A stretch of DNA of 64,000 nucleotides from Acidihalobacter ferrooxydans (GTDB lineage Bacteria; Pseudomonadota; Gammaproteobacteria; DSM-5130; Acidihalobacteraceae). A program made the position numbers and the translations under genes. Of this stretch, positions 11,845 to 44,400 are shown piece by piece. Location of the stretch: the NCBI RefSeq assembly GCF_001975725.1, contig NZ_CP019434.1:434001-498000 (forward strand), given 5' to 3'. The notes under the pieces are model-generated. The model made no database searches, was not told where the DNA came from, and worked only from the letters and a program-made list of their open reading frames with translations. The number at the start of each line of letters is the position of its first letter. Position 1 is the stretch's first letter.

Positions 11845-14058
<2,214 letters not shown>

Positions 14059-16469: not shown

Positions 16470-19088
16470 TCAGCGGCGTTTGTGGCGAACGAGCAGATCG
16501 AGCAGCGCACGCCGTGGCAGTTTGCCGGTGGCGTTGCGCGGCAGCGCGTCAACCTTGAGCAGCGGGCGTGGCAGAAATGCCGGGTCGATCCCGCGGCCGA
16601 GTGCCTGCAGGATCTGCGCTGTGCCGAGTTGCGGCGCGACGACGGCAGCGGCCAGCCGGCTGCCCGGTTCCGAAACGAAGAAGGCACCGTCTTCCACGCC
16701 GTCGATGGCGAGCAGCCGTTGATTCAGATCGCCGAGCGTGGTGCGCTTGCCGGCGATATTGATCAATTCCCGCTTGCGGCCGCGCAGTTCGAAACGTCCA
16801 TTGGGCTGCACTTTGGCATAGTCGCCCATGAGCTGCGGGGCATTCAGATGCGGGCCGTCGATGCGCAACAGGCCGTGCTTGCCAAGGTCGGTGCGGATGC
16901 CGTCGAGGGGCGTCCAAAGGCGTTCTGCCGCGGGCCGGCGACTGGCGACAGCGCCGGTTTCGGTGCTGCCATAGATTTCGTACACAGGGCAGCCGAGCGC
17001 GATTTCGGCGCGCTCGGCGAGTTCGCCCCCGAGTGGTGCCGTAGAACAGATCACGAAGGCGAGTGGTGGCCAGTCGAGGCCGGCTTCTGTGCAGGCGCGC
17101 AGATGCAGTGGCGTGGTCAGCAAGACCCGCGCCGCATCCAGTTCGGCGAGTGCGGCGCGGATGTCGGCGGGATAGAACGGGCGGCCGCTGTGTACCACGC
17201 AGGGACCGAGCAGTGGATAGAGAATGCTGAATTCAAGGCCGAACATGTGCTGCGGCGGTACGGTGGCGACAAGCTGATGGCCGGTGCGGTCGAGGCCGAA
17301 GTGACGCATGCCGAGACGGATGCCTGCTGTGAGCCTCGCCCAGGTCTTGCGGTTGGCCTGCGCGGTACCGCTGGTGCCGGAGGTGAACAAGACGACTTCG
17401 GTGCGTGGGTCGATGGGGGCGCCAGGCTCGGCGGCATGTGTGCCCGGGGCGATTTGCACATGATGACGCAGAGCGCAACGTACATCGGGTTTCGGGTCGG
17501 ATAGCAGGCAGTAGGCGGCGTATTCGTCCGCTATTTCATCGATGACCTGTGGCGCCTGGCTGGGTGGCAGCAATACGGTCTGGCCGCGTAGCAGCAGGGC
17601 GGCGAAGCCGAGCATGAACAGGTATCGATCGTGGCTGAGGTTGAGCGCGCGGGCATGTTCGGGCAGCGCTCGCGCGAGCGCCTGGGCCTGATGCAGGAAT
17701 TGGCCGCGGCTTACTGCATGGCCGTGATACCACAGTAGCGGATCGTTTGCGTCGGCCATGTACGGTAGCAAGTGCATGTTGCGGCGAGGCGTCGCGAGCA
17801 GGGCCTCGACGCTTTGTCGGGTCAGTTTTCCGGTGGCATTGCGCGGCAAGGCGTCGACCTTGAGAAGTGGGCGTGGCAGGAACACCGGGTCAAGCACGCG
17901 GCGCAGTTCGCGCAGGATGTCGACCTCGCTGAGTTCGGGAGCGACAACCAGTGCGGCGAGACGATCGGGGTGGTTGCCGCCGGGGGCGATAAAGGCCGCG
18001 TCGCTGACGCCGGATATGGCGAGCAGGCGCTGGGTGAAATCCTGCAGCGAGCCGCGCTTGCCGGCGATGTTGACCATATCCGCATGGCGACCAAGCAGTT
18101 CGAAGCGCCCGTCGGCATGTACCTCGATAGCATCAGCCAGCGTTTGCTCGGTGTGCAGATAGGGCGCTTCGACTCGCGCCGGCTCGCCGGCGCAGATGCG
18201 AATATCATCGTAAGGTTGCCACAGCACGCCGTCCACGGTCCGTCGGCAGGCCAGTGCGCCCGTTTCGCTACAGCCATAAATTTCGTACACAGGGCAGCCG
18301 AACGTGCGTTCCGCGCGCCGCGCCAGATCCTCAGACAGCGGCGCGGTGGCGGAAATGACCCGATCGATTTGCGGCCACGCCAGGTCGGCTTCGGTGCACA
18401 CGCGCAGGTGGATCGGTGTGGTGACGAGCACCCGCGGCGTGTCGACCTCGACCAGTGCGGCGCGTACGTCTTCGGCATAAAACGGTTGTCCGGTTTGCGC
18501 CGTGCAGGCACTGAGCAACGCGTATAGCACGGTCGATTCGAGGCCGTAGGAATGTTGCGCCGGGACTGTCGCGACGAGCTGCACGGGCGCGCTGTCGAAG
18601 CCGAAACAGCGCAGTGCGACGGCTGTGCCTCCCACGAGCTGACCCCAGCTCTTGGCGGTTGGGGCGGGTTTGCCAGTGCTGCCCGAAGTGAATAGCACGG
18701 CGGCGGTATGTGCGCCCGCAATTGTGGGTGTGGCGGTAGAGGAGACGGCAGCGGATGTGGTGTAGTCGAGCACTCTCTGGGAGGCTTCGATGTCTGTCAT
18801 GGGCTGATCGGTAAGACAATAGGCAGCGTATTCAGAGGCGATTTCGTCGATGATCTGCGGTGCGTGACTCGGCGGTAGCAGATTGATCTGACCGCGTACC
18901 AACACAGCGCCGAATGCGACCATGAACCGGTAACGGTCGGTGCAGAGGTTGATGGCATGATGGCCGACGGGCAGACGCGCAGCGACCTGCATGACATGCG
19001 AGAGGTAGGTGGCGCGGCTGATCGGGCGTCCGTCTTGCCAGGCGATGGGCGTGTCCGGCTCGCCGACGATGAGCGGCAGACGGCTCAC
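16470..19088 (-). CDS. tandem double acyl/aryl-AMP ligase of the pigment cluster
   Basis: An 872-residue protein made of two complete ANL adenylation domains (about 1-435 and 438-872). Each has its own P-loop (TSGSTGK at 134-140; TSGTSGTAQ at 569-577), YG.SETG/YGSTETG motif, INIAGKR-type hinge and catalytic lysine (Lys421 and Lys856). The segment [17 protein letters not shown] is identical in both halves, which points to internal duplication. Aryl-polyene clusters normally carry a single such ligase to load the aromatic starter onto a carrier protein. The GTG start overlaps the stop of the upstream membrane-protein gene (GTGA). Confidence 0.85.
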
Positions 19089-19684
19089 GGTTGGAACATG
19101 CGCCGAAAATCGACGCGCGACAGGGCCTGCAGAGTCTCACGCAAACCGGCGGTGGGTTCGCCGCGCAGCACAATGTGACGCAGCGCGAACTCTGCGCCGA
19201 AAAATGCGCCAAGCAGCAGATAATTAATGAAGTTGGTGAACAGCGACCAGACTTCGAGTGGAGCGGCAACGGCCAGCATCGCGGAGAGCAACGCCAGGGC
19301 GAGGGAAAACCACATCCATGCCCAACTGACTCGCCGTGTATAGCGCAGCACGCGCGCCGAGCGGTGTGGGCGTACGTGCAGCGCGATGCGCGTAATGAGG
19401 TCCGTGCGGCCGGGCAGCAGGCCGCGCATGAAGAACAACGCGGCAGCCAGGTTGAGCGCGACTGGGGGCAGGAACAGCATGCCGTAGAGGCCCGCGAAAC
19501 GCAGCATAAGCAGGGTGGCGAGCACATAAAGAGCAAGGAACACCAGGCTGCTGCGATCACGGCGCACGATGGCCTGCACGAGGCTGAGCAGCAACAGCGC
19601 TGCGAGCGCTAGCACGGCGGGCAACGGATAACCGTAACTGACGCTCAGGTGTACTGTCAGCGCATAGCCCGCCAACAGGAGCAT
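19085..19684 (-). CDS. COG4648-type multi-spanning membrane protein
   Basis: A 199-residue inner-membrane protein with about five to six hydrophobic segments (PMLLLAGYALTVHLSV, AVLALAALLLLSLVQ, GMLFLPPVALNLAAALFF, FSLALALLSAMLAV). Such proteins often sit between the carrier protein and the AMP ligase in aryl-polyene clusters; the function is unknown. The start is uncertain: the first ATG clear of the carrier-protein gene is at 19684, with TTG at 19699 as an alternative. Confidence 0.65.
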   Translation of the reverse strand: MLLLAGYALTVHLSVSYGYPLPAVLALAALLLLSLVQAIVRRDRSSLVFLALYVLATLLMLRFAGLYGMLFLPPVALNLAAALFFMRGLLPGRTDLITRIALHVRPHRSARVLRYTRRVSWAWMWFSLALALLSAMLAVAAPLEVWSLFTNFINYLLLGAFFGAEFALRHIVLRGEPTAGLRETLQALSRVDFRRMFQP

Positions 19685-19715
19685 GGGCCAGAGCTTCAAC
19701 GCCTTGAACTCCAGT

Positions 19716-19985
19716 TCAATCGACCCGGTTCTGCTCAATATGCTGACTGAGGGACCGCAGTGAAGCGAAGACCTGACGGTTGTGTTCGTCGTCGGATTTG
19801 AGCTGGAAACCGTAACGTTTGGAGATAGCCAATGCGAGTTCCAGCGCGTCGATGGAGTCGAGCCCCAGACCATCGCGGAACAATGGTTCTTGCGGATCGA
19901 TATCTTCGGCGTTCAGGTCGTCAAGATTGAGTGCGTCGACGATGAGCTGAGCAACCTCACGTTCCTGCTCGGTCATTTCTGTCAT
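19716..19985 (-). CDS. acyl carrier protein 1 of the pigment cluster
   Basis: An 89-residue acyl carrier protein. The phosphopantetheine serine is Ser44 in GLGLDSIDALEL. The ATG at 19985 follows GAGGGA at good spacing; the frame is open far upstream but without protein-like sequence. It likely carries the aromatic starter or the growing polyene. It is the first gene of a minus-strand unit with the membrane protein and the AMP ligase. Confidence 0.88.
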   Translation of the reverse strand: MTEMTEQEREVAQLIVDALNLDDLNAEDIDPQEPLFRDGLGLDSIDALELALAISKRYGFQLKSDDEHNRQVFASLRSLSQHIEQNRVD

Positions 19986-20029
19986 GGTTTCCCTCATTGA
20001 GCGACAAAATAGGCTTGCATAGGGTAAAT

Positions 20030-20850: not shown

Positions 20851-21801
20851 GTGTACAAAATTCTCGTCGTTTATTACTCCCAGTCAGGGCAATTGGAACG
20901 CGTCGCGCGCACAGTGGCTGCGCCGCTGGATGCAGCGCAGGACGTGCAGGTTGATTACCTGCGCCTCGAACCCGCGGTGGCGTATCCGTTCCCCTGGGGC
21001 TTGTTTTCCTTTCTCGACACATTTCCCGAAGCGGTCTATCTGGACGCGCCGCGACTGCGGCCGTTCGGCCTGGCGCCAGAGGCACGTTACGATGCGATCA
21101 TTCTGGCCTATACCGTGTGGTATCTTTCGCCGGCCCCGCCTATCACGGGCTTTCTGAAATCGCCCGAGGGTCGGCGCTTGCTGGCCGGGACACCGGTCGT
21201 CACCCTCACTGCCTGCCGTAACATGTGGCTGATGGCGCACGAGCAGATCAAGGCTTTACTGGCCGATGCCGGTGCGCGGCATTGCGACCATGTTGCCTTG
21301 GTCGATCAGGGCAACAGTCTGGCGACTTTCTTTACCACGCCGCGTTGGATGCTCACCGCACGCCAGGACCGCTGGCTGGGGCTGTTTCCGCCGGCCGGCG
21401 TCAGTGAGCGTGACATCGCCGGCAGCATCCGTTTCGGGCGTGCGCTGCTTGCCGCCGTGCGCGCCGGAACGCTCGACGGTACACAGGCGGTGCTGACCGG
21501 CCTCGGCGCGGCGCGCATGGACGTGCGTCTGCTCGCCAGCGAACGCATCGGTCGTCGCTCGTTTTTGATCTGGGGGCGATTGCTGCGCCGAGTCGGCCCC
21601 CCGCGTTCGGCACGCCGCAAACCCGTGTTGTTGATCTATGTGATGTTTCTGATCGGCATGATCATCGTGGTGGTGCCGCCGAGTATGCTCGTGCGCAGCC
21701 TGCTGCGATCCTTCCAAGGTGAACGTGTGGCCCGTGAACGCGCTTATTTCGAGGCACCGTCGGGGTCTGGCACCGAACGCATGGGTGAGTTTTCCGCATG
21801 A
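20851..21801 (+). CDS. DarA-like flavodoxin-fold protein (dialkylresorcinol pathway)
   Basis: A 316-residue protein with an N-terminal flavodoxin-like fold: the phosphate-binding loop YYSQSGQLERVA at about residues 8-20 and an Ile/Leu-Ala-Tyr-Thr-Val-Trp-Tyr loop near 90. A C-terminal membrane segment lies at about 265-285 (LLIYVMFLIGMIIVVV). Proteins like this are paired with DarB ketosynthases and are often labelled dialkylresorcinol condensing enzyme. GTG start at 20851. It overlaps the next gene by four bases, so the two are translationally coupled. Confidence 0.75.
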   Translation: MYKILVVYYSQSGQLERVARTVAAPLDAAQDVQVDYLRLEPAVAYPFPWGLFSFLDTFPEAVYLDAPRLRPFGLAPEARYDAIILAYTVWYLSPAPPITGFLKSPEGRRLLAGTPVVTLTACRNMWLMAHEQIKALLADAGARHCDHVALVDQGNSLATFFTTPRWMLTARQDRWLGLFPPAGVSERDIAGSIRFGRALLAAVRAGTLDGTQAVLTGLGAARMDVRLLASERIGRRSFLIWGRLLRRVGPPRSARRKPVLLIYVMFLIGMIIVVVPPSMLVRSLLRSFQGERVARERAYFEAPSGSGTERMGEFSA

Positions 21802-22958
21802 CACATCCGGTTTATATCAACCGCATCGCCGCCTTTTTGCCGGGCGAGCCGGTCGACAACGAGCATATGGAACAGGTGCTCGGGCAGGTCGGTGAACGCC
21901 CATCGCGCGCACGTCGCCTGGTGCTACGCCGCAACGGTATCCGGCAGCGTTACTACGTGCTCGATCCGCAGACCGGCGTACCCCGCTGGACGAACGCGGA
22001 ACTGACCGCCGAAGCCGTGCGTGGTCTGACCGGCACGGAGGTCGACCTCGCGGATATCGAAGTGCTGGCCTGCGGGACCACAATGGCTGATCAGCTTGCG
22101 CCGGGCCATGGGGTGATGGTGCATGGCGAGCTTGGTAACCCGGGCTGCGAGGTCGTGTCGCTGGCCGGGATTTGCGCCGCCGGTGTGGCCGCGCTCAAGT
22201 ACGCCTGGATGAGCGTGCTCAGTGGGCAGCATGGCAATGCGGTGGCGACCGGATCGGAGAACGCATCCACGCTCATGGCGGCGCGCAACTTTGCCACCGA
22301 AAACGCGGCGCGCGTGGCGGCGCTGGAGGAGCATCCGGAGATTGCCTTCGAGAAGGACTTCCTGCGCTGGATGCTATCCGACGGCGCTGGCGCCATGCTG
22401 TTGCAGGATCGCCCCAATGCAACCGGTTTATCGCTGCGCATCGACTGGATCGACATCCATTCCTATGCCGACCGTCTGCCGGTGTGCATGTATGCCGGCG
22501 GAGACAAGGATGCCGACGGCCGCTTCGTGCCCTGGCGCCATTATTCGTCGCTGGAAGCGGCGCTGGCGCAGTCCGCATTCGCTCTGAAGCAGGACGTACG
22601 CCTGCTCAACGATCAAGTGGTTGAGGTGAGCGCAGGACACGGCCTGCGCGATACCCTGACGCGCCATCCGTTGTCGGCGACAGAGATCGATTGGTTCCTG
22701 CCGCACTATTCCTCACAATTCTTCCGCCAACCGTTGTACGACAAGTTGGCCGAGTGCGGCCTGGAAATCCCCTTCGAGCGCTGGTTTACCAATCTGCCCG
22801 AGGTAGGCAATGTCGGCTCCGCTTCGCCCTATCTCATGCTTGAGGCGCTATTCAACGGCGCGGGCCGCTTGCGCGCCGGACAGCGAGTACTTTGTTATGT
22901 GCCAGAAAGTGGTCGGTTTTCTTCGGCCTTCATGCACTTCACGGTGGTAGAGGCATGA
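21798..22958 (+). CDS. DarB-like ketosynthase III
   Basis: FabH-fold condensing enzyme, 386 residues. The thiolase-fold triad is visible: Cys126 (LAGICAAGV), His303 (FLPHYSSQ) and Asn338 (VGNVGSAS). Homologous DarB enzymes join two beta-keto-acyl chains to form the ring of 2,5-dialkylresorcinols. In Bacteroidetes and some proteobacteria these become ester-linked to aryl polyenes as flexirubins. ATG overlaps the DarA-like stop; the next gene overlaps by ATGA. Confidence 0.85.
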   Translation: MTHPVYINRIAAFLPGEPVDNEHMEQVLGQVGERPSRARRLVLRRNGIRQRYYVLDPQTGVPRWTNAELTAEAVRGLTGTEVDLADIEVLACGTTMADQLAPGHGVMVHGELGNPGCEVVSLAGICAAGVAALKYAWMSVLSGQHGNAVATGSENASTLMAARNFATENAARVAALEEHPEIAFEKDFLRWMLSDGAGAMLLQDRPNATGLSLRIDWIDIHSYADRLPVCMYAGGDKDADGRFVPWRHYSSLEAALAQSAFALKQDVRLLNDQVVEVSAGHGLRDTLTRHPLSATEIDWFLPHYSSQFFRQPLYDKLAECGLEIPFERWFTNLPEVGNVGSASPYLMLEALFNGAGRLRAGQRVLCYVPESGRFSSAFMHFTVVEA

Positions 22959-23356
22959 AACGAGACGAGGTTCCGCAGTACCGCAACCGCGTGCTGGCTG
23001 GCGCGCGCAAGGCCGTTTACGCGGTGGATGAAAACGGTGAAATTGGTGCGGTGGCAAGCACTGGCTGGGAGGTGGAGGAGATAGTCACTACGCTTGCGCT
23101 GGACGATTTCCGCCTGCACGCCGATGAAGCTCTGGCACGCGCGCGTCGCGCAGAGACCTCGCCACTGGAATACCATATGTACGCGCAGCGCATGGACCTG
23201 CCGACACTGGCACAGAGCGTCGGTCTGCAGCGCTGGCGAGTGCGCCGGCACCTGCGCTCGCGCACATTCGCGCGGCTCTCGCCAGCGCTGCTGCGGCGCT
23301 ATGCCGAGGCCTTGGGCATCAGCGTCGACGCTTTGCGTCGACTGCCGGGACAGTGA
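22955..23356 (+). CDS. small protein with C-terminal helix-turn-helix
   Basis: A 133-residue protein of the dialkylresorcinol-like unit. The C-terminal half (MDLPTLAQSVGLQRWRVRRH and FARLSPALLRRYAEALGI) looks like a Cro/XRE helix-turn-helix. The N-terminal half has no recognised domain. It overlaps the ketosynthase gene by four bases and the next gene by GTGA, so it is made with the biosynthetic proteins. It may be a regulator or an accessory protein; the sequence does not decide. Confidence 0.65.
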   Translation: MKRDEVPQYRNRVLAGARKAVYAVDENGEIGAVASTGWEVEEIVTTLALDDFRLHADEALARARRAETSPLEYHMYAQRMDLPTLAQSVGLQRWRVRRHLRSRTFARLSPALLRRYAEALGISVDALRRLPGQ

Positions 23357-24363
23357 GCATGCAGGTCGAAGGTTACCAGCACCGCCACGCCGGCCACTGC
23401 GAAAGCGGCGTCATGTCTGCGCTGCTGAGCCACCAAGGGCTTGAGCTCAGCGAACCGTTGGCTTTCGGTTTGTCTTCTGCCTTGGTATTCGCGCATTTTC
23501 CGTTCGTCCGCGTGGGTGGCGTGCCGCTGACTTCGTACCGCATGCCACCCGGCCACATCATCAAAGGTCTGGAGCGCAGCCTGGGCGTACGCATTACCCG
23601 CCGCCGCTATCGTGATCCCGCGCGCGGCATGCGCGAACTCGACGAACTGCTCGATGCGGGGCGGCCCGTGGGCTTACAGACTTCGGTGTACTGGCTGCCC
23701 TATTTCCCGCCGGACATGCGGTTTCACTTTAACGCGCATAACCTCATCATCTTCGGCCGCGAGGGCGACGACTATCTGGTCAGCGATCCGGTGGTCGAAC
23801 ATCCGCAACGCATCGCGCGAGCCGACCTGGAGAAGGCGCGGTTTGTGCGCGGTCCGTTCGCCCCGCGCGGCCTGATTTATTTCCCGACCGACGTGCCGCA
23901 GTCGGTCGATCTGACGCATGCGGTACCCAGGGCGATCCGCCGCACGCTGAATATCAATACTCGCCTGCCCCTGCCAGTGGTCGGTTTGCCGGCGATCCGC
24001 CGCATGGCGAAAACCCTGCGCGAGATGCCGCGCCGCCATCCCGACCCGCGCTACCAACGCCTGTACGTGGGCAGTATCGTTCGCATGCAGGAGGAAATCG
24101 GCACCGGTGGTGGGGGGTTTCGCTTCATCCAGGGCGCATTTTTGCAGCAAGCCGGGCATGCCTTGGGCGACGAACGTTTGCATGCTGCGGCCGAGGCTAT
24201 GATCGCGGCCGGCGATCAGTGGCGGCAGTTCGCGTTGAGAGGGGCGCGGCTCGTCAAGGCGAAGCAGCCGACGGCGCAGGGATTTGCGGAGCTGGCCGAC
24301 GAGTTGCTTGCCTGTGCCGAGGTCGAGCGCAAGGCATTCGAGGCCTTGCGCTCGACGCTATAA
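23353..24363 (+). CDS. BtrH-type acyltransferase
   Basis: A 336-residue protein with the BtrH N-terminal signature: HCESG at residues 15-19 with Cys16 as likely nucleophile, then SEPLAFGLSSALVFAHF and a downstream NAHNLIIFGREGDDYLVSDP. BtrH moves an acyl side chain from a carrier protein to an acceptor in butirosin synthesis. Here it could esterify the resorcinol with the aryl-polyene chain, which is inference. The start is GTG 23353 (GTGA overlap) or ATG 23359. It ends 13 bp from the convergent secreted-protein gene. Confidence 0.75.
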   Translation: MSMQVEGYQHRHAGHCESGVMSALLSHQGLELSEPLAFGLSSALVFAHFPFVRVGGVPLTSYRMPPGHIIKGLERSLGVRITRRRYRDPARGMRELDELLDAGRPVGLQTSVYWLPYFPPDMRFHFNAHNLIIFGREGDDYLVSDPVVEHPQRIARADLEKARFVRGPFAPRGLIYFPTDVPQSVDLTHAVPRAIRRTLNINTRLPLPVVGLPAIRRMAKTLREMPRRHPDPRYQRLYVGSIVRMQEEIGTGGGGFRFIQGAFLQQAGHALGDERLHAAAEAMIAAGDQWRQFALRGARLVKAKQPTAQGFAELADELLACAEVERKAFEALRSTL

Positions 24364-25196: not shown

Positions 25197-26066
25197 TCAC
25201 GTACGGCTGATCTGTATAGCCTGCCAGCCGGCCGTGGTTTTGCCGAGCAGCGCGAAAGGCCGCTCCAGTCGCGTAAGAGCGGCGCACAGGGTCTGCATCT
25301 CGGCGCTTGCGTAATAGCCGTTCGCGGCCGTGGTCGGTGTCCAGATGGGATGGTCGCGCGGGGCGAGTGCGTGGACGAGTTCGCTGTCCTCGGGTGTCGC
25401 CGGGACGAGGGCCTGCGTCGGCGGCAAGGTTCGAAGCCAGGCTTCGAGTGCGGGTCTTGCCGCGAGGCGGACTACCGCATTGATGACGCCGAGCGGCACG
25501 GTGGCGGTCTGGTCGACCGCCAGCCAGTGGCTGCCTTCGCCCAGTGGCGTGTCTGCGGCGATTTGCAGCCGTTCGCGATGCCTGTCCAGCGGCCAGCAGC
25601 ATTCGTCGACCGCACCGATCATTGCCTGGGCCAGGCGCCCGGACCCTGCGTCGGCCAGGGCGAGTTCCAGCGCCGCGCCGAGCGCGGAGTCGCGCCGCGA
25701 CACGGTCAGGTTTGAACCATTGAGCCCAAGCGCGGCGGCAATCTGAAATCCGGCGACGTTGCTTGACACGTTGATGAAGGCGAACGGCATTGGCGCTTCG
25801 CCGAGGCGGTAAAGACCTTCGAGTACAGCGGCGGTATCAGCGACGTTGCCCGCACCGGTGGCGAGATAGAGCGCGCTACCGGCATCCAGTGGCGCGGCGA
25901 GCATGGCGGTCGCAAGGCGGGCGCCGAGCAGGGCGAGTTGGGTGAAGCGACTGCTGCGCCGTGGCGCTTTGAGGCCAAGTCCGGCATACAGCGGGTCGAG
26001 CGGCGTCGGCGCACCGCCGGCGGCCAGCGCAATGCCGCCGGCGGCCACGATACGCAAACCGGTCAT
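25197..26066 (-). CDS. ketosynthase-like protein without catalytic cysteine (chain-length-factor type)
   Basis: A 289-residue truncated ketosynthase-like protein. The nucleophile position reads INVSSNVAGF, without cysteine, and the second half of a normal ketosynthase is shortened. In type II polyketide and aryl-polyene systems such partners pair with an active ketosynthase and set chain length. Its ATG overlaps the stop of the active ketosynthase gene (ATGA), which supports an obligate heterodimer. Confidence 0.75.
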   Translation of the reverse strand: MTGLRIVAAGGIALAAGGAPTPLDPLYAGLGLKAPRRSSRFTQLALLGARLATAMLAAPLDAGSALYLATGAGNVADTAAVLEGLYRLGEAPMPFAFINVSSNVAGFQIAAALGLNGSNLTVSRRDSALGAALELALADAGSGRLAQAMIGAVDECCWPLDRHRERLQIAADTPLGEGSHWLAVDQTATVPLGVINAVVRLAARPALEAWLRTLPPTQALVPATPEDSELVHALAPRDHPIWTPTTAANGYYASAEMQTLCAALTRLERPFALLGKTTAGWQAIQISRT

Positions 26067-27214
26067 GCCGCGCGCTCCACGACAAGCACGCTGTTGTTGC
26101 CCCCGAAGCCGAAATAGTTCAGCAGATACAGGCCGTGCGGTGCGGGTGCGGGTGTGGTCAGCGGCTGCGCGCCGAGTTCTGGATCGGGCGTGTTGAAGCC
26201 GACCGTGGCGGGCATGCGCCGGTCAGCGAGGGTGCGCATGAACAGCACGGTTTCGATCAGGCCGCAGGCGCCCAGCGTGTGGCCGAGTTGAGGTTTGATT
26301 GAGGTCAATGGCGGCAGGGTGCGGCCGAACACGCGGCGCAGACCGAGCGCCTCGGCCTGGTCGTTGCTCGGTGTGCCGGTGCCGTGCGCCTTGATGCCGC
26401 GTACCGCGTCGTGCGTGGCGCCGGCATCGGCCAGTGCTGCGTGCACCGTGGCGGCAATGTGTTCTGGCGTGGTGTAGGTGGTGCTGGTGGTATCGCAGGC
26501 AGTGGCGCCGCCGCGCAGGCGCAGCCCGTCCAGTGGGCCATGATCGCTGTCGCGGCCGAGGACGGCGGCGGCGACGGCTTCGCCGAGCACCAGTCCTTGT
26601 CGGTGCAGGTCGAAAGGACGTGTGGTTTTTTCAGCGTACAGCATCAGGGAATGGAAGCCGTAGCAGGACAGGCCGTTGTGGACTTCGCTGCCGATGACCA
26701 GCGCGTGATCGAGCGTGCCGGCACCGATCAGGCGCTGCGCGTAGAGCAGCGCGTTGGCAGCCGACGAGCAGGCGGTATTGAATGTGTAGGTCGGTCCCTT
26801 CAGACCGTGGCGTGCGGCGAGACGGGCAGCAAGATTGCCGTAGCCGGCTAGCGGCAGGGGATTGGCGCTCGCCTCGTTGGTGAGCGCATGCCGATAACGC
26901 GCTTCGGAAACGCTGATGTCCATCGAACTGCTGGCGAGAAAAATGCCCGTGCGGGCGCGTGCGGCCGGTGACAGGTCGGCGGTGTCGAGTGCCGCGGCAA
27001 CCGCGCTGTCGAGCAGGTGATAAAGGCGTTCGCGGGGCGGCAGTTCGACGCCGACAATCGGCAGATAGGGCAGACGCAGGGGTGAGTGCAGCGCATCGAG
27101 TTCCAGCGTGACGAGCGGTTGATGGCCGGCCAGCAGCGCCGCGGCAGCGGTGTCGAGGTCATCGCCCAGGGCGCAGTGCAGACCGGTGCCGAGAATGGAT
27201 GTGGCGTCATTCAC
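26063..27214 (-). CDS. FabF-type ketosynthase of the aryl-polyene pathway (1)
   Basis: A 383-residue condensing enzyme. The triad is Cys149 (FNTACSSAAN), His277 (KAHGTGTPSND) and His312 (PQLGHTLGACG), so it should be active. It extends the carrier-bound chain with malonyl units. It overlaps both the carrier-protein gene upstream and the cysteine-less partner downstream by four bases each. Confidence 0.9.
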   Translation of the reverse strand: MNDATSILGTGLHCALGDDLDTAAAALLAGHQPLVTLELDALHSPLRLPYLPIVGVELPPRERLYHLLDSAVAAALDTADLSPAARARTGIFLASSSMDISVSEARYRHALTNEASANPLPLAGYGNLAARLAARHGLKGPTYTFNTACSSAANALLYAQRLIGAGTLDHALVIGSEVHNGLSCYGFHSLMLYAEKTTRPFDLHRQGLVLGEAVAAAVLGRDSDHGPLDGLRLRGGATACDTTSTTYTTPEHIAATVHAALADAGATHDAVRGIKAHGTGTPSNDQAEALGLRRVFGRTLPPLTSIKPQLGHTLGACGLIETVLFMRTLADRRMPATVGFNTPDPELGAQPLTTPAPAPHGLYLLNYFGFGGNNSVLVVERAA

Positions 27215-27474
27215 TGCGCTTCGAGGTAGGCGGCCAGGGCGTCGATCGAGGTCAGGATGCGGCGCAGTTGCTTGGGATCCGCGATGCGGATGCCGTAGCG
27301 TTTTTGCAGCGCCATGGAGATCTGCAGGCCGTCGAGAGAGTCGAGGTCGAGCGCTGATTCAGGACCGAACAAGGGCGCGTCGTCGGGCAGTGCCGAGGGT
27401 TCGATATCGCGGTCGCACTCGTCGACGATCAGGCGTTTGAGTTCGAGTTTGAGAGTGTCGCGGTCGATTGTCAT
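27211..27474 (-). CDS. acyl carrier protein 2 of the pigment cluster
   Basis: An 87-residue carrier protein with phosphopantetheine Ser46 in LDLDSLDGLQIS. It overlaps the ketosynthase gene. Together with carrier protein 1 it gives the cluster two distinct acyl carriers, perhaps one for the starter and one for elongation. A family 1 repeat lies just upstream. Confidence 0.9.
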   Translation of the reverse strand: MTIDRDTLKLELKRLIVDECDRDIEPSALPDDAPLFGPESALDLDSLDGLQISMALQKRYGIRIADPKQLRRILTSIDALAAYLEAQ

Positions 27475-27554
27475 GGGTATTCGGGCGGCAGCGTCTGGCG
27501 GTCAGCGCAATGTCGGCAGTGTAACAAACTGCACCGGTCCAGCGATCTGCTGCC

Positions 27555-31142: not shown

Positions 31143-32309
31143 TCAGTCGTGCCCGAACAGGTCGCGGCTGTAGACCTTGTCGGCCACATCGCGGATTTCA
31201 TCGGTGATGCGGTTGGCGACGATGACGTCCGCCAGCGATTTAAACTCGGCCAGGTCGTTGATCACTCTAGAGTTGAAGAATTCGTCCGCTTCGAGCACCG
31301 GTTCGTAAACGATCACTTCGATGCCCTTGGCCTTGATGCGTTTCATGATGCCCTGAATGCTCGATGCCCGGAAGTTGTCCGAGCCGGCCTTCATGATGAG
31401 GCGGTGCACGCCGACGATCCCGGGCTGGCGCGCGATGATTTCGTCGGCGACGAAGTCCTTGCGCGTGGTGTTGGAGTCGACGATGGCGCGGATCAGGGTC
31501 TGCGGTACGTCGCGGTAGTTGGCCAATAACTGTTTGGTGTCCTTGGGCAGGCAGTAACCGCCGTAGCCGAACGAGGGGTTGTTGTAGTGGTTGCCGATGC
31601 GTGGGTCCAGCGAAACGCCGTCGATGATCTGTTTGGTGTCGAGGCCGTGCCGGGCGGCGTAGGTGTCCAGTTCGTTGAAATAGGCGACGCGCATGGCGAG
31701 GTAGGTGTTGGCGAACAGTTTGATTGCTTCGGCTTCGGTCGCGTCGGTGAACAGGGTTGGGATGTCTTGTTTGATGGCGCCCTGGCGGAGCAGGCCGGCG
31801 AAGGTTTCGGCGCGCCGGGAGCGTTCGCCGATGACGATGCGCGAGGGGTGCAGGTTGTCGTGCAGCGCCTGGCCTTCGCGCAGAAATTCGGGCGAGAAGA
31901 GGATGTTGTCGCAGCCGAGCTCCGCTTTGATCATGGCCGTGTAGCCGACCGGCACGGTCGATTTGATAACCATCACTGCCTGGGGATTGATCGCCATGAC
32001 GTCGCGGATCACCGCCTCGACCGAGTCGGTGTTGAAGTAATTGGTCACCGGGTCGTAGTCGGTTGGCGTGGCGATGATCACGTAGGCGGCGCCGGCATAG
32101 GCTTCATGTTTGTCCAACGTGGCGAGGAAGTTCAGCGGTTTGTGCCGCAGGTAGTCCTCGACCTCGGCGTCGACGATGGGTGATTCCTTGCGGTTGAGCA
32201 TCGCCACCTTCTCGGGCACGATGTCGAGCGCGATAACTTCGTTGTGCTGCGCCAGCAAAATGGCATTGGACAGGCCGACGTAGCCGGTGCCGGCGATGGC
32301 GATTTTCAT
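31143..32309 (-). CDS. ugd: UDP-glucose 6-dehydrogenase
   Basis: Makes UDP-glucuronate from UDP-glucose and two NAD+. The 388 residues match the short E. coli-type enzyme. The Rossmann motif GTGYVGLSN is at the N-terminus, and the catalytic nucleophile is Cys253 in [11 protein letters not shown]. It sits between the dehydratase and a chain-length-factor gene, in the same direction and with gaps of 14 and 25 bp. It therefore looks like part of the operon, although standard aryl-polyene clusters do not carry it. Confidence 0.95.
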
Positions 32310-32334: not shown

Positions 32335-33141
32335 TCAGGGCGTGCATGGTACCTGAGCGGGCGTATAGGTGACCGCTATGCCGGAGTCGGCGTCCAGATA
32401 GGGCAGCACGAGGCGGGTGGGCGTGTCGCCGGCCAGCGCGGCCAGCAGCGGCAGAGCACGCGCGGCGGGATTGTCGGTGCGCAGGGCTTCGAGGGCGTGA
32501 TCGGCGCACGGCGTCGGCGTGTCGGTGGTCAGTTCCAGGTCGATGGTGGGGGCGTCTTCGCGCGGTGCGGCGAGCACCAGAGCCACCGCGCAGTCGGCGC
32601 CGATGGGGCGCACGGTGTCGAACGGTTGCGCCATGGCCTGTTCGTAGGCGACGAGCAGTACGCCGCGGTTTTCCGCGACGCACAGCGTGGCCGCTTCGAG
32701 CAGGCCAGCGGCGAAGCTGGCGTCGTAGGCGCCGAGGCTGGCCGATGGAGCGTGGGCGTCCATCGCAATGCTCCAATAACCGGCCGGCGCGTTGTGCACG
32801 GAGTTGTGGAAGTGGGTGGGCGACAGTGCGCGGTCCGTACTCGCCAGCGTGCTGCAGATGGCGTCAACCAGCGGCATGTCGCCGCTGGAACTGGCGAACA
32901 CGGTCGCCAGCGCGGCGGGGTTGCAGGCGGCGGTGTCCAGGGCTTGCCGCGCGGCGGTCAGCGCAAGGCGGATGGTGGCTGTGGTGCGGCGGCGTTCGTT
33001 GCGCGGCAGACACAGCGGTTGCGGCGGCGGCAGCGGCGTATGCGTATAGGCACGGTCGCCGCGCAGGATCGGCGCGGCTTGTGCGAAAGATTCGAGGCCG
33101 GGCGCGTAGAGGCCGATGCCGAGGATGCTGCAAACCGTCAT
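32335..33141 (-). CDS. ketosynthase-like chain-length factor (ApeC-like)
   Basis: A 268-residue member of the short ketosynthase-like family found next to aryl-polyene ketosynthases. Its hallmark [17 protein letters not shown] replaces the usual active-site region, and there is no nucleophilic cysteine. It overlaps the second active ketosynthase gene (ATGA), suggesting heterodimer formation as in the ApeO/ApeC pair. Confidence 0.8.
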
Positions 33142-34313
33142 ACGGCCCCCAGCAGCAGGCTGCAGTTGCTGCCGCCGAAACCCAGCGAATTGCTGAGCAC
33201 ACGGCGCGGGGCGCCGGTGCGGCTGTTGCGCACGAGGTTCAGGCCGATGGCCGGGTCGGGCGTGCGCAGGTTCAGCGTGCCGGGCAGGAAGCCGTGTTCG
33301 ATGGACAGAGCGCAGAACACCGCTTCAAGAGCGCCGGCGGCGCCGAGGGTGTGGCCTGTCCAGCCTTTGGTGCCACTGGTCGGCGGTGCGTCGAGCAGTG
33401 CGCTGAGGGCGCGACTTTCCGCACTGTCGTTGGCCGGGGTGCCGGTGGCATGCAGGTTGACATAGTCCAGCCCGGCGGCGTCGAGACCGGCGCGGGTCAG
33501 CGCCGCGCGCATGGCTTCGAGCGCGCCGCGACCGTTCGGCTCAGGGCGGGCGATGTGGTAGGCATCGGCGCTTTCGCCGTAGCCAAGCAGGGCGACGGCA
33601 TTGTCGCGCGGCGCCGCTTCGAGCAGGGCGAAGGAGCCGGCTTCGCCGATCGAGAGTCCGTTGCGCTGCGCGTCCAGCGGGCGGCAGGGTTCGGCGGACA
33701 CCAGTTGCAGCGAGTGGAAGCCATACAGCGTCATCTGGCACAGGCTGTCCACGCCACCCACCACGGCCGCATCGCACCAGCCGACCTGGATGTGGCGCGC
33801 GGCGGTGGCGAACACCTTGGCGCTGGACGAGCAGGCGGTGGAAAGCGTCAGCGCGGGGCCGCGCAGTCCCAGGTGGCGGCGCACGAAGTCGGTCAGCGAG
33901 AAAATTTCGTGGCTTTCGCGGAAACGGTAGTCGGCGGGCAGCGCACCGTCGGCCTTGCGCCGGCGGTAGGCGTGCTCGGTTTCCAGGATGCCGGAGGTAC
34001 TGGTGCCGAGGAATACGCCAATACGTGCGGCGCCGAGGCGGCGGCGCGCATCGGCAACGGCGGCGGCGAAGCCGTCGGCCTCCAGTGCCAGCGCGGCAAG
34101 GCGGTTGTTGCGACAGTCATAGGCGGCCAGATGGCCGGTAATCGGGGCATCCTCGATGCCCGTGACGCGGCCGATCCAGGTGTCGAGGTCCACATCCTCG
34201 AAGTCGCAGGGGCGCAGCCCGCCGCGCATGGTGCGCAGTGCGTCGGCGTGCGCCGCGTTGCCGTGGCCGAGTGCTGATGTCGCGGTATACGCGGTCAGGT
34301 GAAGCGGTTGCAT
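33138..34313 (-). CDS. FabF-type ketosynthase of the aryl-polyene pathway (2)
   Basis: A 391-residue condensing enzyme with Cys161 (LSTACSSSAK), His288 (NLHATGTPAND) and His321 (WTGHTLGAAG), all present. It is a second active ketosynthase in the cluster, paired with the short chain-length factor. A 73-bp gap holding a short tandem repeat separates it from the exporter gene upstream. The ribosome-binding site is weak, so expression may differ from that of the exporter. Confidence 0.9.
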   Translation of the reverse strand: MQPLHLTAYTATSALGHGNAAHADALRTMRGGLRPCDFEDVDLDTWIGRVTGIEDAPITGHLAAYDCRNNRLAALALEADGFAAAVADARRRLGAARIGVFLGTSTSGILETEHAYRRRKADGALPADYRFRESHEIFSLTDFVRRHLGLRGPALTLSTACSSSAKVFATAARHIQVGWCDAAVVGGVDSLCQMTLYGFHSLQLVSAEPCRPLDAQRNGLSIGEAGSFALLEAAPRDNAVALLGYGESADAYHIARPEPNGRGALEAMRAALTRAGLDAAGLDYVNLHATGTPANDSAESRALSALLDAPPTSGTKGWTGHTLGAAGALEAVFCALSIEHGFLPGTLNLRTPDPAIGLNLVRNSRTGAPRRVLSNSLGFGGSNCSLLLGAV

Positions 34314-39337: not shown

Positions 39338-39437
39338 AGGAGTCTGCCGGACTTGGATAATTGAAGCGAGGCGGGTGGGAAATGGACCCATTATTTCACC
39401 GCCGCAGCCGATTCTTTCAAAGTCCGACCGGTTCCCT
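39338..39437 (-). repeat. family 1 inverted-repeat element, copy 3
   Basis: A 100-bp element. Its reverse complement aligns along its length with copy 2 and copy 4, including gaatcg-ctgcggcg in the left half and cgcctcgctt in the right half. Its one end lies inside the chorismatase gene and encodes the last 14 residues plus the stop; the other end lies 13 bp before the outer-membrane protein start. Confidence 0.85.
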
Positions 39438-40425
39438 GAGAGAGGCCTTCGATCTCCATCAGCAGGTCGCTGCGGCAGACGGTGGCATGCAGGTATATGC
39501 GCGCTGCGGCGCCTGCCGGCAGGCGGGTTTCGAGGGCGTCGCGCACAGGTTCGAGCAGTGCAGGTTCGCGCAGGTAGACCTTGAGCAGGTCGAGTTCGGC
39601 GATGCTGCGGATGCTCAGACCGTGCCGCGTGTGGGCTTCGCCGATCAGTGCGTCAATGTTGGTCAGGATTTCCTCCAGCTGCGGCAGTAAGGTGGCGTGG
39701 CGGCTTTCGTGGCCGACGATGCTGGCCGTGCCGGAGATGTAGAGGTGATCCCGCTCTGGCCAGCGTTTGAGCAGCGCGCGCGCGAACGAGGGGCTGCGTG
39801 GGCTGTAGCGGGGCGGGTAGCGAAAGGCGCTGATCTGGCGCGGGTTTTCGATCTGGATGCCGGGTTCACGGGCGGCGAGAAGGTAGACGTTGAGCGGGCC
39901 GCCGTGAGAGCCGAGGGCGCTGGCGGCAGGCAGGGCGGCTTCGAATTCGCCGAGCATTTCGAGTGCGTGGTAACGTCCGACGCAGAACGACTGGTAGCGC
40001 TCCAGGCCGTCCTCGACGTCGAGGATGCGCGGAAAATAGTTCCAGACGCGCAGCAGGTGCGGGTAGGCCGAATCGTCGAGCAATTCGAGGATGCGGTCGT
40101 AGATGGCATGGGCGCTGGAGCGGATGTCGTCGGCCGGCAGTTGCAGGCTGGCGAACAGGATGTCGTCGTTGCGGGCGATGCGCAGGCCGTCGCGGGCGAT
40201 GCGTTCGACCGGGGTCGGGCTGGACCAGTGTTCGCAGAGCGGTGTGCCGGCCAGTTGCGGCAGGACAAGGTCGAAGTTGCAGGTGTCGTCGGCGGACAGC
40301 CACGGCGCGTCGGCAAAGCCGATCAGTGCGAGTGTGTGCGGATCGCGCGCGAGTTCGTCGCGCCGGGCGGCGTTGATATAGCGAACCGCGAACGGCGCCG
40401 GTGCTGAATGTGTTGGGTCGGGCAT
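39391..40425 (-). CDS. XanB2/FkbO-type chorismatase
   Basis: A 344-residue protein of the chorismatase (pteridine-dependent deoxygenase-like) group: RVWNYFPRILD, CVGRYHALEML, PLNVYLLAAREPG and SGTASIVGHESRH are characteristic. XanB2 splits chorismate to 3- and 4-hydroxybenzoate, the aromatic starters of xanthomonadin. This links the cluster to the shikimate pathway. The ATG at 40425 gives a normal N-terminus. The C-terminal tail GTGRTLKESAAAVK comes from the family 1 repeat, so the native end has been replaced or extended. Confidence 0.85.
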   Translation of the reverse strand: MPDPTHSAPAPFAVRYINAARRDELARDPHTLALIGFADAPWLSADDTCNFDLVLPQLAGTPLCEHWSSPTPVERIARDGLRIARNDDILFASLQLPADDIRSSAHAIYDRILELLDDSAYPHLLRVWNYFPRILDVEDGLERYQSFCVGRYHALEMLGEFEAALPAASALGSHGGPLNVYLLAAREPGIQIENPRQISAFRYPPRYSPRSPSFARALLKRWPERDHLYISGTASIVGHESRHATLLPQLEEILTNIDALIGEAHTRHGLSIRSIAELDLLKVYLREPALLEPVRDALETRLPAGAAARIYLHATVCRSDLLMEIEGLSQGTGRTLKESAAAVK

Positions 40426-40602
40426 CGCTTGGCGTCTGTCTGATTCAGGTGGTCGTCGCGAGTGAGTGGGCAGTAACAGCTGTGGTCTGTTGTTTGAGGT
40501 TGATCGTGGCTCCTGGCCAAATATGCACAGGGCAATGGTCCTGGTGTCTCGTCGGAGCAGAGTGGATGGTCTCTGCATCCGACAAATGACAGGTCCGGTT
40601 GT

Positions 40603-41940
40603 TCAGTCTTTGTCTACCGAGAGTGTGCCGCCGCTGAAGGTCAGCGCGTTGTTACGCCGGCGCAGTGCGGCGGCGCGGCGCTGCGCCGGCCAGTTGGCGA
40701 GTACGGTGATGTAGTAGATGGCCTTGAAGACCAGTGTCGGTATACGCATTGGCGTCGGGCGGAACACGTCGCCGGCGAGCATGGTGGTGACGGCGTCGCG
40801 TACGCGGAAGACGTTGCGTGGTGACATGAACAGGTTTTGCATGGCCGGGGTGTTGAAACGGTAGATGAACCAGGCGAAATGCTTCATGCCGCGGCGCATG
40901 TGGCGTTCGTGGGCGGCGATGAGCTGTGCGCGGCGTTCGGGATGGTCGAGCAATTGATCAACCACGTCGGCGGCGCTGAAGGCGCTGGTCAGCGCCAGGT
41001 GCACGCCACTGGAGAACACCGGGTCGAGAAAGGCATAGGCATCGCCGATCATGAGGTAGCCGTCACCGGCGGACGCTTTTGAGTAGTAGGTGAAGTTGCC
41101 GGTGGCCTGCACCTCGCCGACCTGTTCGGCATGCTGCATCCGCTCGGCCACGCCGGGCGACAGGGCGATGGTGCGTTGCAGGAATTCGGCCGGCGGGCAA
41201 TCGCGGGTTTTGAGGTATTCGGGCCAGCAGACGGCGCCGACGCTGGTGATGCCGTCGCGCAGCGGAATCATCCAGAACCAGCCGTGTTCGAACCAGTACA
41301 CGCTGATATTGCCGGCATCGTGGCCGTCGCGGCGCGGGATGTTGCGAAAGTGTCCGAAAATCGCAGCGCTGTTGTGGTCGGGGTTCTTGTACTTGAGGCC
41401 GAAGCGTTTGGAGAGCAGCGTGTCGCGGCCACTGGCGTCGATCACGAAACGGGCTTCCCAGGTGTGGGTGTCGCCCGCGGCGTCTTGTGCCTGAACGAGG
41501 CTGGTCTGGCCGGGGCGGAAGTCGATTCGGCTCACGCGCATGCCTTCATAGGTTTGCGCACCCTTGACGCCGGCGTTGCGGAACAGCGCCTGATCGAAGT
41601 CCGAGCGGCGCACTTCGTAGGCGTGCGGCCAATTTTTGTCCCAGGCGTGTTTGAAGTAATAGACCTGATGGCGGTTGGAGTGGCTGTCGGAGTTGAATTC
41701 CGCGCCGGGTTTGAGGACACCGATATCGTCGCGCACCGCGTCGAGCACACCGAGTTTTTCCAGCAACGGAAGCGATTGCGGCAACAGGGATTCACCGATG
41801 TGAAAGCGTGGATGGTGGTCTTTTTCCAGCAACACGACCTGGCGTCCTTTCTGCGCCAGCAGTGCGGCGGCGCTGCTGCCGGCCGGCCCGCCGCCGACGA
41901 TGAGTACGTCGCAGTTTTGCGTGGTGGATGTTGCGGTCAT
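40603..41940 (-). CDS. flavin-dependent halogenase-like enzyme
   Basis: A 445-residue FAD enzyme. The dinucleotide motif is GGGPAGSS (16-22). The halogenase-specific WxWxIP motif is present as WFWMIP (221-226), and the LKPGAEF segment has Lys77 at a position usual for the variant group acting on carrier-bound substrates. FFDH-type enzymes brominate or chlorinate the aromatic ring; xanthomonadins are brominated. A 177-bp gap separates it from the chorismatase, and a family 1 repeat lies upstream. Confidence 0.85.
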   Translation of the reverse strand: MTATSTTQNCDVLIVGGGPAGSSAAALLAQKGRQVVLLEKDHHPRFHIGESLLPQSLPLLEKLGVLDAVRDDIGVLKPGAEFNSDSHSNRHQVYYFKHAWDKNWPHAYEVRRSDFDQALFRNAGVKGAQTYEGMRVSRIDFRPGQTSLVQAQDAAGDTHTWEARFVIDASGRDTLLSKRFGLKYKNPDHNSAAIFGHFRNIPRRDGHDAGNISVYWFEHGWFWMIPLRDGITSVGAVCWPEYLKTRDCPPAEFLQRTIALSPGVAERMQHAEQVGEVQATGNFTYYSKASAGDGYLMIGDAYAFLDPVFSSGVHLALTSAFSAADVVDQLLDHPERRAQLIAAHERHMRRGMKHFAWFIYRFNTPAMQNLFMSPRNVFRVRDAVTTMLAGDVFRPTPMRIPTLVFKAIYYITVLANWPAQRRAAALRRRNNALTFSGGTLSVDKD

Positions 41941-41977
41941 GCAATGAGCCCCTTGATGTTTTTTGATTGTGCCGTAT

Positions 41978-42076
41978 GGGAGCCTGTCGGGCCGGTCAGT
42001 AATCGACAGCGGCGGTAGGATCTTAAGTCCATTCCCCACCCGTCTCGCCCCAACCCGCAAGATTCGACCGGCTCCC
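41978..42076 (+). repeat. family 1 inverted-repeat element, copy 4
   Basis: A 99-bp copy in the same orientation as copy 2. Outer ends gggagcctgtcgg and ccggctccc pair; the body reads aatcgacagcggcggtagga, like the other copies, and the right half has ccacccgtctcgcc. It lies between the halogenase start and the DUF4340 gene. Confidence 0.78.
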
Positions 42077-42139: not shown

Positions 42140-43003
42140 TTACGGAGCCGGGTGCGCAGCGCTGGCGGGCAGGTGGAGGAGGCGCCCGGCGAGGGCTGCG
42201 GGCAGGTGGTAGTCGGCGCGCAGACCGGGGGCGCGCAGGATCAGTGAGGGCTGTGTCGCGATGATCTGGAAGTGCAGTTGCGTGCCGTCGGCGAGGCCGA
42301 CGCGGATGTCACCCTGCGTGTTCGCGGTGGAACGGGCCGCGGGTGTGATCCGCAGCGCGTGGGCCTGGCGCCAGGCGTCGAGCAGGGCGGCGATTTGTGC
42401 GGCGCTGGCGTGTGCGTGCGCGAGGGTCCAGCCGGAGGGCGCTTTGGCGCGGAGGTCGAGCGTGGGCAGGTGAAGCGCCGTGATGCGCGCGCCGGGCGGC
42501 AGCAGCTTGAGGCTGATCCAGCTCAGCGCGGGGCTTTCGGGGAGGGTCGAGAGGGCGTCGGAAACGAGGTAGAGCATGCCGTTGCGCAGTGCATAGCGGC
42601 GCTGGTTCAGTGGGTTGAGCGTGCCAAGTTCGATGCGGGTCTTGCCGAAGCGGATGGTGGCGCGCGGCGGAGCGAGGCCGTACTGCGCGAGATCCAGTCT
42701 GGCGGCGGCGTAGCGCTTGTTGCTGCGTGCCTGCGGCAGGTCGAGCAGCGCCCGCATGAGGGCCGGGTTGGCGCGGGCGCGGATGGGGGCGGTCAAATGC
42801 CAGGCGTGATTGACGCGGGCGAAGGTCAATGCGGGCTGGCCGGGACGGCTGATGGTGATGTGCCGTACGGTGGCGGCGTCGATGCCGGGGGCGAGCACGA
42901 CGCCGGTCGGCGCGGGTTGTGGGTGCGGGCGTAGCGCCACCATGGCGAGGCCGATGACGACGAGCAGCAGTGCCAGATTGAGCAGCAGGCGGCGGTTGAG
43001 CAT
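42140..43003 (-). CDS. DUF4340 domain protein of a Gld-type ABC system
   Basis: A 287-residue protein with one N-terminal membrane segment (LLLNLALLLVVIGLAMVAL) and a periplasmic DUF4340-like region with repeated beta strands (ITISRPGQPALTFARV, WHLTAPIRARAN). Such proteins are found beside GldG-like ABC subunits. Function is unknown. It lies 10 bp after the GldG-like gene. Confidence 0.75.
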   Translation of the reverse strand: MLNRRLLLNLALLLVVIGLAMVALRPHPQPAPTGVVLAPGIDAATVRHITISRPGQPALTFARVNHAWHLTAPIRARANPALMRALLDLPQARSNKRYAAARLDLAQYGLAPPRATIRFGKTRIELGTLNPLNQRRYALRNGMLYLVSDALSTLPESPALSWISLKLLPPGARITALHLPTLDLRAKAPSGWTLAHAHASAAQIAALLDAWRQAHALRITPAARSTANTQGDIRVGLADGTQLHFQIIATQPSLILRAPGLRADYHLPAALAGRLLHLPASAAHPAP

Positions 43004-43013
43004 GCGGGCGGCG

Positions 43014-44384
43014 TCAGCGGGCCGGCCGGCGGCGGCGCAGCCAGATCACGCCGCCGGTGATGAACAACGCGAGTGGCAGGGCGACGAGGAACAGCCCGGC
43101 GATGACGTAACCGTCAACGCGACTGAGTTGCAGCCGGGTGTCCGGCGCGGCGGGCAGGTGGACCTGGATCAGGCTGTCGTCGTGGCCGAGCCAGTTGATA
43201 GCGGCGAGGGCGAGTTCGAGGTTGGCGCCCTGACCGATGAAGGCGTTGCTGGCGAAGGCGCCGCTGCCGAGGATTACGGCGCGCGGTTGTTTGCCGCCGT
43301 GCACGGACTTGCCGGTCAGCGCTTCGCCGAGAATCAGCGGTCCGGCGGTGTCGCCGCGGGCGGCGTCGAAGTGTACGGTGCCGTGCAGTGGCGCGGTCGT
43401 GCTCCAACTCTGTTGCAGCGTGCGCAGCAGCGGCACGGCGCTCCAGTGCGCGTTGCCGGCCGGCTGCACGATGCCGGCGCTGAACGGGATCAGGGTCTGG
43501 ATCTGAAGGTGTTCGGTGACCGGGGAAGGGCCGTAGTTGAGGATCGGAACGATGGCCGGGTTCTTGATGCCGAGCATGGTGCGCAGATTCGCGTCGGCGT
43601 CGACCACGGTGCCGGGCACGAAGCGGATGCCGAGCTGCTTGGCCAGTGGGTCGAGGCCGTGCAGCGAGCCCGGGGCGTGCAGCCAGAGCAGTGCGCCGCC
43701 GCCGGCCAGGTATTTGCCGATGGCCGTCACTTCGCCGGCGGTGAGGGCGGTCTTTGGTTCGGCGATGACCAGTACCGATGTGTTTTCCGGAATCTGCGGG
43801 GTGCGCAGCAGGTTCAGCGGCTGCAGGTGGAAGCCGTCATGTTGCAGGGCGGCGGCGAGGCGGCTGAGGCCGGCGCTGGTGGTGTCGAAGGGCGAGCGTT
43901 CCTGATGGCCGTCCAGGAATACAACCCATTGGTCGGCGCCGCGGGTCAGATGCAGCAAGGCGTTGAGCAGCGTTTCCTGGCTGAGGTTTTCGACCACGCG
44001 TGTGCGCCCGTCGAGCGCGATGGCGAGCTGGCCGGTGTGGGTGACGCCGTATCGGTTGGCTTGCGCGGGGTGCAGATCAGGGTTGACGAACTTGAGGCTG
44101 ATGTGCGGATCGACGGCCTGGTACAGGGCGATCTGGCGGCGCACGCGCGCGTGCAGATCGGCATTGTTGGCGACGAAGGCGATGAATTGATACGGCCTTG
44201 GGTTGGCGCGCAGGAGCTTGACGGTGGTCGGCGCGAGGCTGTTGCGGTGGTTGGCGGTCCAGTCCTGCACATAACGGTATTGATGGCTGAGCCAGGCGAG
44301 CAGGCCGATCGCGAGCAGGAACAGCGCGAGAAAGAGCAGCGAGTTCAGGCGCAGCTTCCAGCGGGTGGTGCGGGATACGTGCAT
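43014..44384 (-). CDS. GldG-like ABC system auxiliary subunit
   Basis: A 456-residue protein with an N-terminal segment (LLFLALFLLAIGLLAWL), a large periplasmic domain of the ABC-type uncharacterised transport / GldG family (RYGVTHTGQLAIALDG, VVFLDGHQERSPFD, GGALLWLHAPGS) and a C-terminal segment (VIAGLFLVALPLALFITGGVI). In the gliding bacteria GldG works with GldA and GldF; in other bacteria the role is undefined. Confidence 0.85.
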   Translation of the reverse strand: MHVSRTTRWKLRLNSLLFLALFLLAIGLLAWLSHQYRYVQDWTANHRNSLAPTTVKLLRANPRPYQFIAFVANNADLHARVRRQIALYQAVDPHISLKFVNPDLHPAQANRYGVTHTGQLAIALDGRTRVVENLSQETLLNALLHLTRGADQWVVFLDGHQERSPFDTTSAGLSRLAAALQHDGFHLQPLNLLRTPQIPENTSVLVIAEPKTALTAGEVTAIGKYLAGGGALLWLHAPGSLHGLDPLAKQLGIRFVPGTVVDADANLRTMLGIKNPAIVPILNYGPSPVTEHLQIQTLIPFSAGIVQPAGNAHWSAVPLLRTLQQSWSTTAPLHGTVHFDAARGDTAGPLILGEALTGKSVHGGKQPRAVILGSGAFASNAFIGQGANLELALAAINWLGHDDSLIQVHLPAAPDTRLQLSRVDGYVIAGLFLVALPLALFITGGVIWLRRRRPAR

Positions 44385-44400
44385 CGGTGGCTCCCTTGGC

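Follow-up and report, generated by a model that had tools for sequence, protein, structure and literature searches.

A tandem AMP ligase, probably for aryl acids, with two diverged acid pockets in an aryl-polyene gene cluster of Acidihalobacter ferrooxydans

We analysed a stretch of 64,000 nucleotides from Acidihalobacter ferrooxydans (contig NZ_CP019434.1, positions 434,001 to 498,000; hereafter the window), in which one gene codes for two AMP ligase domains in a single chain. Both domains are complete and retain their catalytic residues, the duplication is old, and the acid pockets have diverged in a manner common to two genomes. Few secondary metabolites of bacteria are as widespread as aryl polyenes (APE), whose starter step is normally served by one single-domain ligase. 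Judging from the sequence, we are about evenly inclined to see in this protein a bifunctional aryl-acid:ACP ligase that arose by an old in-frame tandem duplication and carries two diverged pockets, its halves probably differing in the acid they prefer. What we propose on whether the halves are active, on their substrate and carrier and on how they share the work is inferred, the simplest explanation being that each site takes an acid, or serves a carrier, of its own.

Two ligase domains in one reading frame

The gene is a single open frame on the reverse strand, without internal stops, running from a GTG start at 19088 to a stop at 16470 (Table 1). The Pfam AMP-binding family was matched twice within the 872-residue ORF, and residues 1-437 could be aligned end to end with residues 438-872 (50% identity, E=1e-142). 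A single catalytic domain is usual, albeit not strictly defining, for the ApeH/ArcT role; this ORF has two. That two neighbouring genes were fused by a reading error is unlikely, since a second genome (G244, see below) has the same fusion and the junction is clean.

When 53 single-domain relatives were aligned with the two halves (A, N-terminal; B, C-terminal), the residues that vary little or not at all across the family proved to be kept in both. The TSG..G P-loop, TVP.QH..G.E, EIYG..E and the hinge GR...NIAGKR are found in each, together with the residue pairs K146/K581, H179/H614, E275/E710, D319/D756 and K421/K856. The ribose Asp and the A4 and A5 motifs are present in each half, and the defining set of class I adenylate-forming (ANL) enzymes, that is the A3 P-loop, A5, the A7 Asp, the A8 hinge and the A10 Lys, is complete in both. 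The P-loop of half B is slightly unusual, reading SGTSG versus SGSTG in nearly all relatives; the swapped letters are both hydroxyl residues, and the glycines and the lysine are unchanged. Structure models of the halves (mean pLDDT 88 and 85) predict for both the N-core plus lid fold of ANL enzymes. Their best PDB matches were MenE and MatB/benzoate-CoA ligase chimeras, and 4-chlorobenzoyl-CoA ligase and salicylate-AMP ligase structures were matched as well; a PDB sequence search with the ligase returned distant NRPS and ANL matches only.

The initial annotation of this DNA had proposed a tandem AMP ligase with two intact active sites, which is confirmed by the one ORF, the two full domains and the motifs in both; the P-loops, hinge motifs and catalytic lysines that it placed in each half are borne out by the alignment with the 53 relatives. 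It had also pointed to an identical C-terminal stretch of 17 residues. The identity is real, but the run is 20 residues long (403-422 = 838-857) and is just the conserved A10 motif of the family, carrying no special information. Several of its codons differ synonymously between the halves, so that it gives no evidence of recent copying, and no long near-identical DNA was found elsewhere between halves A and B of this genome.

Table 1. Positions of the ligase gene, its parts and the neighbouring cluster genes in the window
Feature	Position	Strand	Remarks
Tandem aryl-acid AMP ligase	16470..19088	-	872 aa, GTG start
Half A (residues 1-437)	17778..19088	-	complete N-core and lid; pocket type S180/Y181/S185/A247
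Half B (residues 438-872)	16473..17777	-	complete N-core and lid; pocket type M615/F616/F620/S682
P-loop (A3) of half A	18648..18689	-	residues 134-147
P-loop (A3) of half B	17343..17384	-	residues 569-582, variant SGTSG
A4 pocket segment of half A	18507..18560	-	residues 177-194
A4 pocket segment of half B	17202..17255	-	residues 612-629
Catalytic A10 lysine K421	17826..17828	-	
Catalytic A10 lysine K856	16521..16523	-	
COG4648-type membrane protein	19085..19720	-	ApeG-like by position and conservation; overlaps ligase start
ACP1, phosphopantetheine carrier	19716..20012	-	
DarA-like protein	20851..21801	+	position beside DarB and 79% match in G244; no family match
StlD/DarB family ketosynthase	21798..22958	+	
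DarG family protein	22892..23356	+	
DarH, BtrH-related acyltransferase	23353..24363	+	
Ketosynthase of the DAR side	26063..27214	-	
ACP2	27214..27501	-	DarC-like carrier by position
APE ketosynthase	33138..34313	-	
FkbO/Hyg5 (XanB2-like) chorismatase	39391..40578	-	likely source of hydroxybenzoate
Flavin-dependent halogenase	40603..42060	-	

The ligase gene forms the end of a conserved ACP-COG4648-ligase run; its start is overlapped by the COG4648 gene, and fpg starts at 16468, 2 bases past it. The cluster is a yellow-pigment cluster of the halogenase-bearing aryl-polyene plus dialkylresorcinol (DAR) type and is arcuflavin-like: DarB, DarG, DarH/BtrH, a second ACP and the APE genes are all present, and the ligase adjoins the APE ACP and the COG4648 gene within an APE cluster, the context of a starter ligase. 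Further cluster genes code for an ABC exporter, a glycosyltransferase, a dehydratase-like protein, and MMPL, LolA-type and MipA proteins. ACP1 and ACP2 were the only carrier proteins with a DSL/DSI motif found from 14 to 48 kb.

Three other observations were made on the window. A UDP-glucose 6-dehydrogenase gene (31143-32309, reverse strand) lies within the aryl-polyene cluster and found no match among the related clusters used for comparison. Next to the cluster lies a gliding-type ABC set (DUF4340, ABC_transp_aux, permease and ATPase; 42140-46094, reverse strand), as it does in contig C30 of G244. The katG gene for catalase-peroxidase (11875-14058, forward strand) has one in-frame TAG stop at 12955-12957 that falls precisely where its N half meets its C half, the two being otherwise near full length (profile positions 3-353 and 360-719 of 725); the gene may yield two polypeptides, or the stop may come from a sequencing error or a mutation of recent date.

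Distribution and age of the tandem form

A tandem ligase was found in 2 of about 94 genomes with a close relative, the window's own and G244, and the others have single-domain ligases; this count is summed over class and phylum samples for which E-value cut-offs differed between searches, and single-domain status was judged from match extent and open frame in a partial sampling of genomes. Relative loci that were checked directly have one copy each, the same-family genomes G002-G004 have single-domain ligases, and 13 relatives taken from sequenced-genome contigs are all of the single-domain form. No second ligase of the same family was detected in any other of the 30 genomes searched more deeply. 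The family and order of G244 hold too few genomes to add tandem examples, and a literature search for the phrase 'tandem adenylation domains' gave no match. The earlier view that the double domain is exceptional and a single-domain ligase usual is upheld by these counts; that the double domain is universal in such clusters is rejected, nearly all relatives being single-domain.

G244 belongs to another family and order, and its tandem ligase (loci L036 and L062; L036:1492-3849 with L062:1-342) is 60% identical to that of the window. The gene is broken at a contig end, contigs C32 and C30 being joined by a 119-base overlap, and the A10 lysine of its half B is read from the second contig. This half has an in-frame gap of 28 residues in its core, including LLPPS. 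That the half sits on a short branch and keeps its motifs points to either a recent deletion or an error of assembly; the tandem examples number two, and the gap, if real, would probably disable that half.

The phylogeny of the halves, a check proposed with the initial annotation, paired A with A and B with B across genomes. In the N-terminal core tree, half A of the window's genome (G000) grouped with half A of G244 (support 100/89) and half B with half B (100/99); the single-domain ligases of the family to which the window belongs joined the B halves (98/93). Trees uniting the halves within one genome were rejected (p-AU 0.0009 and 0.002). Half B of G000 has a longer branch, that of G244 a short one (0.24); a tree built on the lids was too short to place them. 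This pairing indicates that the tandem duplication is old: it either arose before the two tandem lineages parted, or passed between them by transfer once it had arisen. A recent duplication is ruled out by the core tree and by the synonymous differences in the identical stretch.

Several genes of the cluster are nearer to G244 than to the same-family genomes. The halogenase, ACP1 and the COG4648 protein are 80, 74 and 68% identical to those of G244, against 67-68, 58-67 and 49-50% for the same-family genomes; MMPL, one ketosynthase and fpg stand at about equal distance from both. Segmental transfer or unequal loss is therefore likely for the cluster (19085-42060). Among the clusters compared, the DAR genes are common to the window and G244 only. 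Within G244, the two lids are 81% identical to each other and the cores about 57%, and a tract over residues 386-415 reaches 98% nucleotide identity, which we read as a sign of recent gene conversion.

Divergence of the acid pockets and its possible causes

A site was scored as diagnostic if the two A halves share a residue there that neither B half has. There are 25 such sites, all in the core: none of the 114 lid sites is diagnostic (p=2e-4), and single-domain comparison quartets give 3 to 17 lid sites. The A4 segment (residues 175-195) contains seven of the 25 (hypergeometric p=1e-4); tested as a densest-window scan, this clustering is modest (P=0.04). On alignment with EntE, H179/H614 correspond to H234, and the diagnostic positions 180, 181, 185 and 247 to N235, Y236, S240 and G308, all four near the aryl pocket and the first three lining it. 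The role of the A4 histidine has been described in 4-chlorobenzoyl-CoA ligase (PMC6122825). At these four positions the reading is S-Y-S-A in the two A halves, M-F-F-S in the two B halves and M-Y-S/T-A in most single-domain relatives. With these residues, the acid site of B is probably more hydrophobic and lined with bulkier side chains. The single-domain relative L022 (L022:6001-7311) reads M-F-F-A and its near relative L037, at about 79% core identity, M-Y-S, so that the pocket type switches without duplication.

Each half would be a self-sufficient adenylating enzyme with its own N-core and mobile lid, the junction taking up only a few residues. It would bind ATP and an aromatic acid, form the acyl-adenylate and load the acyl group onto a carrier's phosphopantetheine arm. 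That carrier would most likely be ACP1, encoded two genes upstream, which would then prime aryl-polyene synthesis, and the acid most likely a hydroxybenzoate from the XanB2-like chorismatase. With the surroundings of the acid pocket now different in the two cores, each half would probably favour its own acid (3-HBA against, for instance, 4-HBA or a substituted form), the lids staying alike. No confident substrate prediction was obtained for either half.

The doubling could alternatively serve flux, the two halves taking the same substrate to the same carrier as two identical jobs per chain, with pocket differences due to drift. The promiscuity of single-domain ArcT, the variation of pocket residues among single-domain relatives and the likeness of the lids, with the conversion tract of G244, are consistent with this; yet A- and B-type residues have been preserved separately in two distant genomes and the cores are untouched by conversion, and we regard a pure gain of flux as unlikely. 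Another reading assigns the halves to two carriers, one loading ACP1 for the polyene and the other activating an acid for the dialkylresorcinol-side ACP2. Both tandem genomes have a DAR module with ACP2 beside the ligase, which is absent from six single-ligase clusters compared, and both are among the 9 of 58 genomes with DarB above the cut-off (2 of 9 versus 0 of 49, chance about 0.02). However, the seven other DarB-positive genomes manage with one single-domain ligase only, so the idea that DAR requires doubling is rejected, and two sites are unnecessary for a second carrier. Lids of the adenylating family are expected to take part in carrier contact. The lids, and not the cores, would then be expected to have diverged, but they have not, which together with the single-domain DAR-positive genomes weakens the assignment to two carriers. 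Arcuflavin, moreover, is made with single-domain ArcT (PMC3949708), and we consider such an assignment quite improbable.

We think it quite improbable, too, that one half has no catalytic role and acts as a regulatory or structural partner that is being lost. Such decay would accord with the missing 28 residues in half B of G244, with the grouping of the G002-G004 single domains with B, and with the variant P-loop and longer branch of half B in G000. Nevertheless, the catalytic residues of B are all kept in both genomes, the short branch in G244 would make any decay recent, and the gap comes from a draft genome with a contig break in the same gene. Different acid preferences of the two halves remain our favoured reading.

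Relation to known ligases and implications

A closely related described cluster is that of ArcT, the arcuflavin AMP ligase of Azoarcus sp. BH72 and a homologue of Xanthomonas Xcc4015, a one-domain enzyme of 47.1 kDa that adenylates 3-HBA and several 4-substituted benzoates (PMC3949708). The clusters share the APE plus DAR type, a XanB2-like chorismatase, a halogenase, and an ACP and a gene at the COG4648 position as ligase neighbours; ArcT has one domain against two here, and the kinship is drawn from cluster position and description rather than from alignment. Since the single domain of ArcT handles such a range, two sites are unnecessary for activating both 3- and 4-hydroxybenzoate. The order ACP-COG4648-ligase is that of arcV-U-T (PMC3949708) and of E. 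coli apeF-G-H (PMC8253772). ApeH, which adenylates 4-HBA and loads the ACP directly without CoA (PMC8253772), resembles our protein, in E. coli and Xenorhabdus, as an aryl-acid:ACP ligase beside ACPs and COG4648 with about 440-450 aa per domain; it has a single ligase domain, 25-27% identical to either half. EntE and DhbE share fold, motifs and the H234-equivalent histidine, but are one-domain enzymes of a siderophore pathway with other pocket residues. Among these systems, only the G244 protein has two domains, the same neighbours and a DAR module, and it differs by the gap in half B and the recent lid conversion.

With less assurance than for the reading above, we can picture a two-headed starter ligase, each head with its own acid specificity, that would offer two alternative aryl starters (or differently loaded carriers) to a type II polyketide pathway, its lids homogenised by conversion and its pockets kept apart. 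The enzyme is also a case of mosaic evolution within one chain, cores diverging and lids homogenised. A natural tandem with two diverged pockets lends itself to testing what determines the choice of starter and defines residues to swap; it may also account for APE-DAR pigments whose starter units are mixed or halogenated.
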